NCBI GenBank assembly: GCA_012513515.1
Contig: JAAZCA010000005.1
Span: 29,792 to 93,791 of the forward strand
Origin: Myxococcales bacterium
Lineage (GTDB): Bacteria > UBA10199 > 2-02-FULL-44-16 > JAAZCA01
Length of the DNA: 64,000 nt
Direction: 5' to 3'
This document shows positions 18,040 through 25,836 of the stretch, in pieces; the stretch's first letter is position 1, and the number at the start of each line of letters is the position of its first letter. The position numbers and the translations under genes were made by a program. The notes below the pieces were generated by a model, which was not told where the DNA came from, ran no database searches, and saw only the letters and a program-made list of their open reading frames with translations.

Positions 18040-18498
18040 TCATTTCTCCCTATTGAGAAGCTCGTTGAGCTCTGACATGAACTCGTTTATATCCTTGAAT
18101 GATCTGTAGACAGAAGCGAAGCGCACGTAGGCAACTTCATCCAACTTGTGCAGTGCAGCCATAACACGGGCGCCTATGACGGAACTCGGCACCTCTGAAT
18201 CCCCCTGCTCCTGAACCCACCGCTCGATATCGTCGGCCACCGAGTTGATAGTCTCCATAGAGATCGGGCGTTTCTCGCAGGCCTTTTTAACTCCACCGAC
18301 TATCTTCATGCGATCGAACGCCTCCCGACGACCGTCTTTTTTAACGACGGCGGGTAAAGGCTCCTCGACCCTTTCATAAGTCGTGAAGCGCTTGCCGCAG
18401 ACCTCGCACTCGCGCCTTCTGCGGATGATGGCTCCATCCTTGGAAACCCTCGAGTCGATGACCTTGCTTTCAACAGTTGGACAAAATGGGCATCTCAT
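18040..18498 (-). CDS. nrdR: Transcriptional regulator NrdR
   Basis: Repressor of ribonucleotide reductase genes, sensing ATP/dATP. The 152-residue protein has a zinc ribbon [17 protein letters not shown] with the second pair [13 protein letters not shown] (near 31-44), then the ATP-cone ([19 protein letters not shown] near 51-69). Length and motifs match the family. It starts 3 bases after the glyA stop, in the usual glyA-nrdR-ribD arrangement. Confidence 0.96.
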
Positions 18499-18501
18499 CT
18501 T

Positions 18502-19743
18502 TTACCTGTAGAGCGGAAAAGCGTCACAAAGTTCCCGCACCTGGGATTTTATAGATGTCCGCAAGCTCTCGCTGGAAAGATCGGAAATAACATCCGCGAT
18601 CCAGTTTCCGACGATATTCATCTCAGACTCTTTCATGCCGCGCGTTGTCATCGCAGGAGTCCCTATTCTGATGCCGGAAGTAATAAAGGGAGATCGAGTT
18701 TCCCTCGGGATCGTATTCTTGTTTACGGTTATGCCCGCATCTCCAAGCGCAGCCTCGACCTCTTTGCCGGTTACATCCTGGGCGGTCAAATCCAACAGCA
18801 GCAGATGGGTATCGGTGCCGCCGGAAACTATTCTGATTCCTCTCTTGGAGAGGGCTTCTGCCAGCGCCCTGGCATTCGCCACCACCTGTTTGCAATAGGT
18901 CGTGTAGGCGGGCTGCAGGTCCTCTAGAAATGCCACCGCTTTGGCAGCAATAACGTGCATCAGCGGACCTCCCTGCAGGCCGGGAAAGATCGATTTGTCG
19001 ACGGCCTTGGCGAATTCCTCCTTGCACATAACCATTCCACCGCGCGGACCGCGTAGGGTCTTGTGGGTGGTCGTAGTTACAAAGTGACAATGTGGAATCG
19101 GACTTGTGTGAAGGCCCGTTGCAACGAGCCCGGCGGGATGGGCTATGTCGGCCATCAGGTATGCGCCGACCTCGTCAGCTATCTCACGAAATTTCGAAAA
19201 ATCTATATCGCGTGAATAAGCCGATGCGCCGCAAACTATCAGCTTGGGCTTGTTCTTGTGTGCAAGTTTTCTGACTTCATCGAAGTCGATCAGTTCTGTT
19301 TCAAGATTAACGCCGTACGGAATCACCTTAAAATAAGTTCCGGATATGCTGACGGGGGATCCGTGCGTAAGATGCCCTCCGTGTGAAAGATTCATTCCAA
19401 GAAGAGTGTCCCCCGGCTTGAGTATCGAATAATAGACGCAGAGATTTGCCTGGCTGCCTGAGTGGGGTTGAACGTTGACGTGATCGCAGCCAAAAAGTTT
19501 TTTCGCGCGATCCCTTGCGAGATTTTCTGCTACGTCGACAAACTCGCAACCCCCGTAATACCGCTTCCCCGGATACCCCTCGGCATATTTGTTCGTCATC
19601 ACTGAACCGAGCGCGTTCAAGACATTCTTAGAAACGAAATTCTCCGAAGCTATAAGCTCGAGCTTGTGTTCCTGCCTGCCGAGCTCGTCGGATATGGCCC
19701 TGGCAATTTCCGGATCAAAGTTTTTTAGGTTTTCCGAAATCAC
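18502..19743 (-). CDS. glyA: Serine hydroxymethyltransferase
   Basis: Pyridoxal-phosphate enzyme exchanging serine and glycine with tetrahydrofolate, a main source of one-carbon units. Motifs of the 413-residue protein: [15 protein letters not shown] near 28, [18 protein letters not shown] near 50, [15 protein letters not shown] near 88, and the lysine loop [15 protein letters not shown] near 222-236 (Lys is the PLP Schiff-base residue). The start chosen is GTG at 19743, because AAGGAGG lies 6 bases upstream; the next in-frame upstream codon has no ribosome site. A 108-base gap separates it from rpiB. Confidence 0.96.
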
Positions 19744-19851
19744 GGTTCCCTCCTTTTTGAAATGTGTCAGACGCAAAGCGAATCAGATTGCGCTTGGCTA
19801 TCATAGGGTTTCAAAAAGGGCAAGGATAGTAAGGAAGGTAAAAAGCGGTTA

Positions 19852-20286
19852 TTACAGCTCTATTTTGGCTATCCGAGGTTCGTGGCGCCCGCCTTCAAAC
19901 TGGGTCATCAGAAAAACGTCAGTCAACAGAACCGCCATATCGAAGGCGGTTATCCTAGCGCCTATGCAGGCCACATTGGCATCGTTGTGACGCCTGGCGA
20001 GTTCCGCATCGACCTGGTCGCGCAGAACCGCCGCCCTGACTCCGCGATAGCGATTGGCCGCCATGCACATGCCTATGCCGGAGCCGCAGACCAAAAGCCC
20101 TCTATCGCATTCCCCGCGGGAAACCAGACCTGATACCTCTTTGGCGTAATCAGGATAATCGGATTTTTCGGCGCTGCGCGGGCCACAATCGATGACAGTT
20201 TCGCAGCGCGCCTGCAAATGCTTCTTCAGATGTTCCTTGAGTTCAAAACCTGCGTGGTCTGAGCCTATGGCGATCTTGAATTGCAT
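19852..20286 (-). CDS. rpiB: Ribose-5-phosphate isomerase B
   Basis: Interconverts ribose-5-phosphate and ribulose-5-phosphate. The 144-residue protein shows IAIGSDHAGFELKEHLKKHL (5-24), CGPRSAEKSDYPDYAKEV (near 34), the active-site LLVCGSGIGMCMAANRYRGVRAAVL (63-87) and RRHNDANVACIGAR (near 98-111). The Cys and His of the active site are kept. The gene touches the ACP-like gene upstream. In related genomes fabF usually stands between acpP and rpiB; here it does not. Confidence 0.96.
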   Translation of the reverse strand: MQFKIAIGSDHAGFELKEHLKKHLQARCETVIDCGPRSAEKSDYPDYAKEVSGLVSRGECDRGLLVCGSGIGMCMAANRYRGVRAAVLRDQVDAELARRHNDANVACIGARITAFDMAVLLTDVFLMTQFEGGRHEPRIAKIEL

Positions 20287-20534
20287 CAGTTGTTCCTCTT
20301 TGAGATCAGGTCAATGGCATCTTGCACGGAGGAAAGATTCTCGGCGATTTCATCGTCGATATCCAATTCAAACTCCTCCTCGAACGCCATGACTATCTCC
20401 ATGAAATCGAGATGGTCGGCGCCAAGGTCATCTATAAAGGATGACTGCAAGGAGATGTCCTCCTCGGAAAGGCCGAGTTGGTCAGCGATGATCTCCCTGA
20501 CTTTCCCCGCTACTTGTTCAAGAGGCAGGTTCAT
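20286..20534 (-). CDS. Acyl-carrier-like protein lacking the phosphopantetheine serine
   Basis: An 82-residue acidic protein with the whole acyl carrier fold: LEQVAGKVREIIADQLGL, the helix-II entry DLGADHLDFMEIVMAFEEEF and a closing IDDEIAENLSSVQDAIDLI. In ordinary ACP the helix-II entry reads DSL, where the serine carries 4'-phosphopantetheine. Here the codon at 20412-20414 is CAT, giving His41, so the protein cannot be primed in the normal way. It lies between rpmF and rpiB, with the usual plsX-fabHDG and fabF genes absent. Possible roles are a repurposed scaffold (ACP partners include SpoT and cysteine desulfurase in known bacteria) or a relic. The rest of the sequence does not look decayed. 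Confidence 0.8.
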   Translation of the reverse strand: MNLPLEQVAGKVREIIADQLGLSEEDISLQSSFIDDLGADHLDFMEIVMAFEEEFELDIDDEIAENLSSVQDAIDLISKRNN

Positions 20535-20543
20535 GTTTGTGGA

Positions 20544-20726
20544 CTATATCTCCTGACCGACGATTTCGCGGCCCTTGTAAAAACCGCAATGGATGCACAC
20601 CCTGTGAGGAAGCTTGGACTGCCTGCACTGGGGACATATCGAAAGGTTCGTCGGTTTTCTCTTTGAGTTGGCCGCACGGCGCATATTTCTTCTGCTCTTC
20701 GATTTTTTTCTCTCTGGGACTGCCAC
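20544..20726 (-). CDS. rpmF: Large ribosomal subunit protein L32
   Basis: Ribosomal protein L32, 60 residues. It begins MAVPERKKSKSRRNMRRA (the canonical VPKRK-type start), and has a zinc-ribbon pair CPQCRQSKLPHRVCIHCG (near 31-48). Length fits. It follows yceD and precedes the ACP-like gene; in typical relatives plsX would follow rpmF. Confidence 0.97.
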   Translation of the reverse strand: MAVPERKKSKSRRNMRRAANSKRKPTNLSICPQCRQSKLPHRVCIHCGFYKGREIVGQEI

Positions 20727-20809: not shown

Positions 20810-21376
20810 TCAGCGTTTTTGCCCACCTACCAGCTTTAACCCCTTGAGGGGCGCCCAGCGAGGGTCGACCTCCTTCTCCGCACAGGAACACTTCCCGTCG
20901 TTCAGATTCTGACCGCATCGCTGACAGAGCCCGGCGCAATCCTTTTTACACAGGTGCTTCATGGGGATCTGAAGTATCACCTGTTCCCTAATGATATCGG
21001 ATAGATCGATATAGTCTCCCTCGTAGAAGCCGAACTCCAGCTCCTCGCTGGAGAGCTCCACTTCGCCGTTTTCCTCCCTGCCGAATTCGTCGTCATCGGT
21101 GGAGGAGGGAATAAGCAAAACGCTTATCTCCACCCCCTGCCTGCTGTCATACTCGCAGAGGCATCTGTCGCAATCACGGCGGGTGGAATACTCGACATTT
21201 CCCTTTATATCGACATTGTCGCCGATCCTCTCGAGTAAAATTTCCGCACTGGCGGCTGCGCCACGAAGATGGGCCTCTCCGACTGCATCGGAAAGAAGAT
21301 CATCAAGCCAGCGATCCTGCTCTGTAGCGGAGATCTTAAGGCCATCTTGCGGTATGTCGTCTAAAAATATTTCCAT
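20810..21376 (-). CDS. YceD/DUF177 family protein
   Basis: A 188-residue protein of the YceD family (DUF177), which in many bacteria is coded next to rpmF and in E. coli is linked to 23S rRNA synthesis. The central part has a cysteine pair RDCDRCLCEY (near 67-76), an acidic strand region, then DLSDIIREQVILQIPMKHLCKKDCAGLCQRCGQNLNDGKC (near 123-162), of which the CxxxC-x3-CxxCG cysteines may bind zinc. The start ATG has no Shine-Dalgarno; the predicted promoter at 21386-21414 would start transcription about 3 bases before it. Confidence 0.9.
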   Translation of the reverse strand: MEIFLDDIPQDGLKISATEQDRWLDDLLSDAVGEAHLRGAAASAEILLERIGDNVDIKGNVEYSTRRDCDRCLCEYDSRQGVEISVLLIPSSTDDDEFGREENGEVELSSEELEFGFYEGDYIDLSDIIREQVILQIPMKHLCKKDCAGLCQRCGQNLNDGKCSCAEKEVDPRWAPLKGLKLVGGQKR

Positions 21377-25515: not shown

Positions 25516-25836
25516 TCAGTAGACTTTTATTTTGATTACCCGATCCCCTTCCGAAGTGCGGCTCCTGTCAAAGCCGACGCGTTTCCCCACGACGAGATAT
25601 TTCTTATCCCCTTTCGGGCCCACCAGTGCTGCCTCGTCGAGATTGAAATAGAGGTCCACTCCCTTCGCATCCTTTATGACACCGTACCCCTGTCGCGGAT
25701 AAAAGCTCGATACACTACCCTTGGGGAAAAGATCGTTTTCCTCAACAAACTGCAACTCAGTTTCCCTCTCGATAGCGAACGGAACTGGAAGCCAGTTCGG
25801 ATCCCTCACATCAAATTTCGGGGCGTCATTTTTCAT
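25516..25836 (-). CDS. Small protein with a cold-shock-like domain, end of the pil operon
   Basis: A 106-residue protein. Residues about 39-106 follow the order of the cold-shock fold: KGSVSSFYPRQGYGVIKD, then LYFNLDEAALVGPKG, then YLVVGKRVGFDRSRTSEGDRVIKIKVY. The classical RNP motifs are only loosely kept, so nucleic-acid binding is likely but unproven. The first 38 residues, RDPNWLPVPFAIERE, are unrelated to anything I know. It starts 3 bases after the pilQ stop, so it may be co-transcribed with the pilus genes. Confidence 0.6.
   Translation of the reverse strand: MKNDAPKFDVRDPNWLPVPFAIERETELQFVEENDLFPKGSVSSFYPRQGYGVIKDAKGVDLYFNLDEAALVGPKGDKKYLVVGKRVGFDRSRTSEGDRVIKIKVY

Follow-up and report, generated by a model that had tools for sequence, protein, structure and literature searches.

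An acyl carrier protein gene lacking the phosphopantetheine serine, conserved across a family of little-known bacteria

That acyl carrier protein (ACP) also binds partners with no part in lipid synthesis is long established; in most bacteria these activities are inseparable from its essential carrier role. AcpP of E. coli activates MukB (of MukBEF) equally as apo- and holo-ACP (PMC8602292), so in this role a bacterial ACP can do without phosphopantetheine. In apicomplexan mitochondria the FASII system of fatty-acid synthesis has been lost from the compartment, and the phosphopantetheine serine of the mitochondrial ACP (mACP) is replaced by Phe in Plasmodium and by Cys or Gly in Toxoplasma (PMC8547962). 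The Plasmodium falciparum protein is nevertheless essential; it binds the LYR protein Isd11, a contact to which Phe113 contributes (PMC8547962).

The acpP gene described here lies in a window of 64,000 nucleotides, the whole stretch of DNA that was analysed, and its family (f1) appears to offer a bacterial counterpart to the mACP of the malaria parasite: FASII and the phosphopantetheine serine have been lost, yet ACP has been kept. The apicomplexan protein belongs to a eukaryotic organelle, whereas that of f1 is encoded by a bacterial chromosomal acpP, with four different residues at the site and an altered holo-ACP synthase (AcpS) as well. The independence from phosphopantetheine proposed for f1 is shared with the action of E. 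coli AcpP on MukBEF, although E. coli AcpP, unlike the f1 protein, retains Ser36 and its FASII role. Evolution itself seems here to have separated the roles of ACP, with FASII and then the prosthetic-group site lost and the protein retained, probably for another, carrier-free job in this family of little-known bacteria. The family is defined by four genomes of four genera (G000 to G003), one of which, G000, is the window genome (1.79 Mb, 99.3% complete). The sister families are f2 (G004 to G007) and f3 (G008), and the phylum set comprises 46 genomes.

The acpP gene and its locus

The open reading frame (20534..20286) begins with ATG and contains neither a stop nor a frameshift. Its product matches Pfam PF00550 with an E-value of 1.9e-12 (47.7 bits against a cut-off of 20.8) and NCBIfam TIGR00517 with 83.7 bits (curated cut-off 70.45). 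AlphaFold predicts the four-helix ACP fold with a pLDDT of 92.6, and the top PDB matches of the model in Foldseek are ACPs, with TM-scores mostly of 0.8-0.95. This protein shares its fold, its synteny and every invariant residue except one with canonical bacterial AcpP as defined by TIGR00517. What it lacks is the serine at the start of helix II, the site of 4'-phosphopantetheine attachment: the motif reads DLGAD-H-LD, with His where E. coli ACP has Ser36, and the FASII partners of the canonical protein were not found in the genome. The earlier note, made from the window alone, had read codon 41 (20414-20412) as CAT and had argued that holo-ACP could not form by the known route; the codon is as it described, and with the serine replaced the protein is, judged from its sequence, unable to become holo-ACP by that route. 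The gene is accordingly best described, from gene order and sequence, as an acpP orthologue by descent whose product would not be a functional carrier. A mis-annotated start or a pseudogene is ruled out by the intact frame and the full conservation. The genome holds no second carrier protein detectable with PF00550 at E<=0.001, and relaxing the threshold to E<=10 added a single match, a 25-position stretch of noise, so that the second, serine-bearing acpP that the earlier note wished to have sought was not found.

Table 1. Features of the acpP locus in the window
Feature	Position	Strand	Evidence or remark
acpP orthologue, His for Ser36, 82 aa	20286..20534	-	Pfam/NCBIfam profiles, AlphaFold fold, sole carrier protein found in genome
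Codon 41, CAT (His), phosphopantetheine-serine position	20412..20414	-	Asp, Thr, Glu in the family's other three genera
rpmF (ribosomal protein L32), upstream neighbour	20544..20726	-	Pfam PF01783
yceD (DUF177), conserved upstream neighbour	20810..21376	-	Pfam PF02620, synteny
rpiB, downstream neighbour	19852..20286	-	Pfam PF02502
glyA, conserved neighbour, used for synteny and family tree	18502..19776	-	Pfam PF00464
nrdR, conserved neighbour	18040..18498	-	Pfam PF03477 and PF22811

Gene order places acpP in the same position as its orthologues. The order yceD-rpmF-acpP-rpiB-glyA-nrdR-ribD is common to f1, f2 and f3, with small differences in other families of the phylum. In G000 the TGA of acpP and the ATG of rpiB share one base; in G001 there is a gap between the two genes. 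A deltaproteobacterial contig (L044) has the order yceD-rpmF-plsX-fabH-fabD-fabG-acpP-fabF-rpiB-glyA (gene names by sequence inspection), and the ancestral order thus held plsX-fabH-fabD-fabG between rpmF and acpP, and fabF between acpP and rpiB. By this comparison the window locus appears to be the old FASII cluster from which plsX, fabH, fabD, fabG and fabF are gone and in which acpP has been left in place.

Loss of the serine and constraint on the gene

Serine is found at the site in none of the four f1 genomes, the residue being His in G000, Asp in G001, Thr in G002 and Glu in G003. It is present in all 32 other acpP genes extracted from the phylum, those of f2 and f3 included, and in all 80 acpP loci from other lineages in the genome collection. 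Eleven positions are invariant among the 32 serine-bearing ACPs; ten of these are kept in all four f1 proteins, among them the helix II acids Asp35, Asp38, Glu41, Glu47 and Glu48, and Ser36 is the one that is lost, in 4/4. An ACP-only tree is too short to resolve the families, and a tree of five neighbouring genes was therefore used; in it f1 forms one clade (support 99/97), with f3 beside it and f2 next. One loss of the serine at the base of f1, followed by drift at the site, would explain these data. Sequencing error or a lone mutation is ruled out, since the four genomes were assembled separately and each has a different residue. In the literature searched, no bacterial acpP without the serine was found, which is weak evidence of absence.

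Constraint on the gene is the same with or without the serine. Mean amino-acid identity of ACP is 0.56 within f1 and 0.55 among three serine-bearing sisters. Dividing changes at codon positions 1+2 by those at position 3 gives 0.44 for acpP in f1, 0.42 in the serine-bearing sisters and 0.44 for the adjacent rpiB; with about 60% of four-fold sites changed, synonymous divergence is near saturation, and this ratio is no formal dN/dS. The serine-less acpP is not decaying and is under normal purifying selection, equal to that on its serine-bearing sisters.

These results bear on most of what the earlier note had proposed. It had described the rest of the protein as well conserved and free of stops and frameshifts, which holds at ten of the eleven invariant positions, and it had named a lone mutation or a decaying gene as the findings that would speak against it; neither was found. 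Its question whether His41 is fixed in relatives has a divided answer, the residue itself varying and the serine being absent throughout. It had suspected one odd gene, where the change is family-wide, and had missed the loss of the FASII cluster.

Fatty-acid synthesis and AcpS in the phylum

Genome-wide profile searches for PlsX, FabH, FabZ and ketosynthase found none of these FASII enzymes in G000. PlsX is missing from all 46 phylum genomes, FabH and FabZ from f1, f2 and f3, and ketosynthase from G000, G002, f2 and f3. LpxD is likewise absent from 46/46. No acyl-phosphate route is thus visible, nor any lipid A pathway of the usual type, and the latter is ruled out as a use of ACP. Much of the phylum has two acyltransferases, one of family PF01553 in a reading frame of some 850-950 aa (the size of PlsB) and another the size of PlsC; from family and length, these would fit phospholipid synthesis from acyl-CoA.

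G001 carries a type I synthase (FAS-I) of the fungal/CMN type (L177:2-12468, G001:C45), with FAS_meander, MaoC, acyltransferase, Fas_alpha_ACP, ketoreductase and ketosynthase domains. Its own ACP domain (PF18325) is invisible to PF00550. It is followed directly by an AcpS-type transferase with an intact Glu and by a fused acyl-CoA carboxylase of 1852 aa. Synthases of this type, whose best-known examples come from fungi and CMN actinobacteria, are also found at L232, L233, L234, L235, L236, L238 and L239, and several of these genomes lie outside the order. G000 and G002 have neither a ketosynthase nor a second transferase by the profiles that detect the G001 system, and appear to be without a fatty-acid synthase of either type. 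In G003 a 6068-aa open frame (L237:1-18207, G003:C8) holds six PP-binding carrier and four ketosynthase domains, as in a polyketide-type megasynthase; G003 is also the sole serine-less genome whose AcpS keeps its Glu.

The earlier note had asked for AcpS to be sought, and a single one is present in G000, in the gene order pdxJ-acpS-nnrD-tsaE (genes named by inspection), and its place downstream of pdxJ is conserved. It scores 93.6 bits against TIGR00516 (holo-ACP synthase; cut-off 59.8), and its fold is predicted with a pLDDT of 89.8. The metal of V. cholerae AcpS sits at the CoA pyrophosphate, bound by Asp8 and Glu57, and Lys61 is in contact with CoA; in the B. subtilis AcpS-ACP complex Arg14 of AcpS contacts Asp35/Asp38 of ACP (PMC3447402). 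The G000 protein keeps Asp8, Arg14 and Lys61, but of the metal-binding pair Asp8 and Glu57/58 the Glu is replaced by Gln. Asp8, Arg14, Arg21 and Lys61 are invariant among the AcpS proteins, and mean AcpS identity within f1 is 73%. In the motif AAKEAF.KA the Glu (Glu57 position) is Gln in G000, G001 and G002 and Glu in G003. In f2 (L187, L194, L195, L208) it is Gln in G004 and His in G005, G006 and G007; it is intact in G008 and in the 11 AcpS of the same type that were compared from outside the order. Mapped on the tree of neighbouring genes, this pattern requires more than one change. In Sfp-type transferases, replacing the third metal-binding residue, here taken as equivalent to the AcpS Glu, with Ala abolishes activity (PMC4103896); no account of what Gln or His does at this position in AcpS was found in the literature searched. 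The f2 ACP retains its serine, but the only AcpS of f2 has Gln or His for the metal-binding Glu, and for that reason the f2 ACP may also be unmodified. Neither acpP nor AcpS was found in G026-G029 (families f12 and f13), where acpP was sought in G028 and G029 also at E<=10; the loss of both genes there is apparently complete.

Possible roles of the serine-less ACP

The combination that marks the apicomplexan mACP, a serine replaced, FASII lost and the gene retained, is found at the window acpP. The reading that we favour, with a probability of about 0.72, is that after the loss of FASII the vertically inherited ACP stayed as a phosphopantetheine-independent protein-binding module, the serine having become dispensable because the rest of the FASII cluster was lost; a kept function without a prosthetic group, as the earlier note had suggested, is thus the best account of the gene. 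The loss of FASII would date from the base of the phylum or earlier, with ACP and AcpS retained for some other role; the chemistry of AcpS would have relaxed in this order, and the serine would then have been lost in the f1 ancestor, leaving the site free to vary. ACP would act as an adaptor that docks by its acidic helix II on a partner protein, at a basic surface, and stabilises or regulates that partner, residue 36 being irrelevant to the contact. Against this account, loss of AcpS chemistry and loss of the serine are not exactly matched, since AcpS keeps its Glu in G003 and the f2 AcpS lost it while the f2 ACP kept its serine; and the helix II acids may be conserved for the fold or for metal binding, not for docking.

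A decaying relic, kept by its position in an operon of ribosomal proteins or because its translation is coupled to that of rpiB, would accord with the loss of FASII and with the one-base overlap of acpP and rpiB in G000. It is disfavoured as quite improbable: frames are free of stops and frameshifts across four deeply diverged genera, constraint equals that on functional sisters, the two genes stand apart in G001, and coupling would not conserve amino acids. Rather improbable, too, is a carrier or synthase that the profiles missed and that AcpS serves. The type I synthases of G001 and other phylum members, with an ACP domain that PF00550 does not detect, lend this some substance; yet G000 and G002 yielded neither ketosynthase nor second transferase, the stand-alone AcpS of G001 has Gln though a separate intact-Glu transferase adjoins its FAS-I, and the serine-less ACP would stay unexplained even if such a synthase were present.

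If ACP is instead a binding module, its partner is the point on which accounts differ. The earlier note had suggested SpoT or cysteine desulfurase, and the comparison favours neither. A RelA/SpoT protein is present in 46/46 genomes, which would allow a service of ACP in ppGpp control, but it is equally present in the ACP-less G028 and G029; its presence with or without ACP does not discriminate, and SpoT is a very improbable partner. A role for phosphopantetheine-free ACP in stabilising cysteine desulfurase or some other Fe-S factor, of the kind that Plasmodium mACP plays via Isd11, has that precedent in its favour, as well as the binding of E. coli ACP to IscS via Asp35 and Asp38 (PMC13343975), both of which are kept in f1. 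The Plasmodium complex works, however, through a LYR protein. The E. coli ACP fails to bind IscS when it carries S36T, and IscS is stimulated by ACP only in its acylated form (PMC13343975), so that to accept the f1 protein an IscS-type desulfurase would have to differ at its interface; we regard this partner as unlikely.

AcpS itself is one candidate partner, since it stays conserved although no substrate for it is visible, and is missing from the genomes that lack ACP. As a specific form of the binding-module reading, it is possible, though we hold it tentatively, that AcpS, with Gln or His for Glu57, is a pseudoenzyme that serves as a structural or regulatory subunit bound to ACP, the two persisting as a non-catalytic pair. 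In G000 and G002 AcpS is retained although no serine-bearing substrate is visible, and its Arg14 and the ACP residues that Arg14 would contact are all invariant. The catalytic Glu still present in G003 tells against such a pair, and the joint absence from G026-G029 would be expected equally of an enzyme and its substrate. That the serine-less ACP and an AcpS without its metal ligand were repurposed together, as pseudo-carrier and pseudo-transferase of one complex, is a slightly more doubtful proposition still; a non-catalytic ACP-AcpS pair, if true, would mean that the most basic module of lipid synthesis has been put to a new purpose.

Elsewhere in the window, at 25516-25836 on the reverse strand, a 106-aa protein with no Pfam match adjoins a secretin-like pilus gene and is conserved in f1, f2 and f3.
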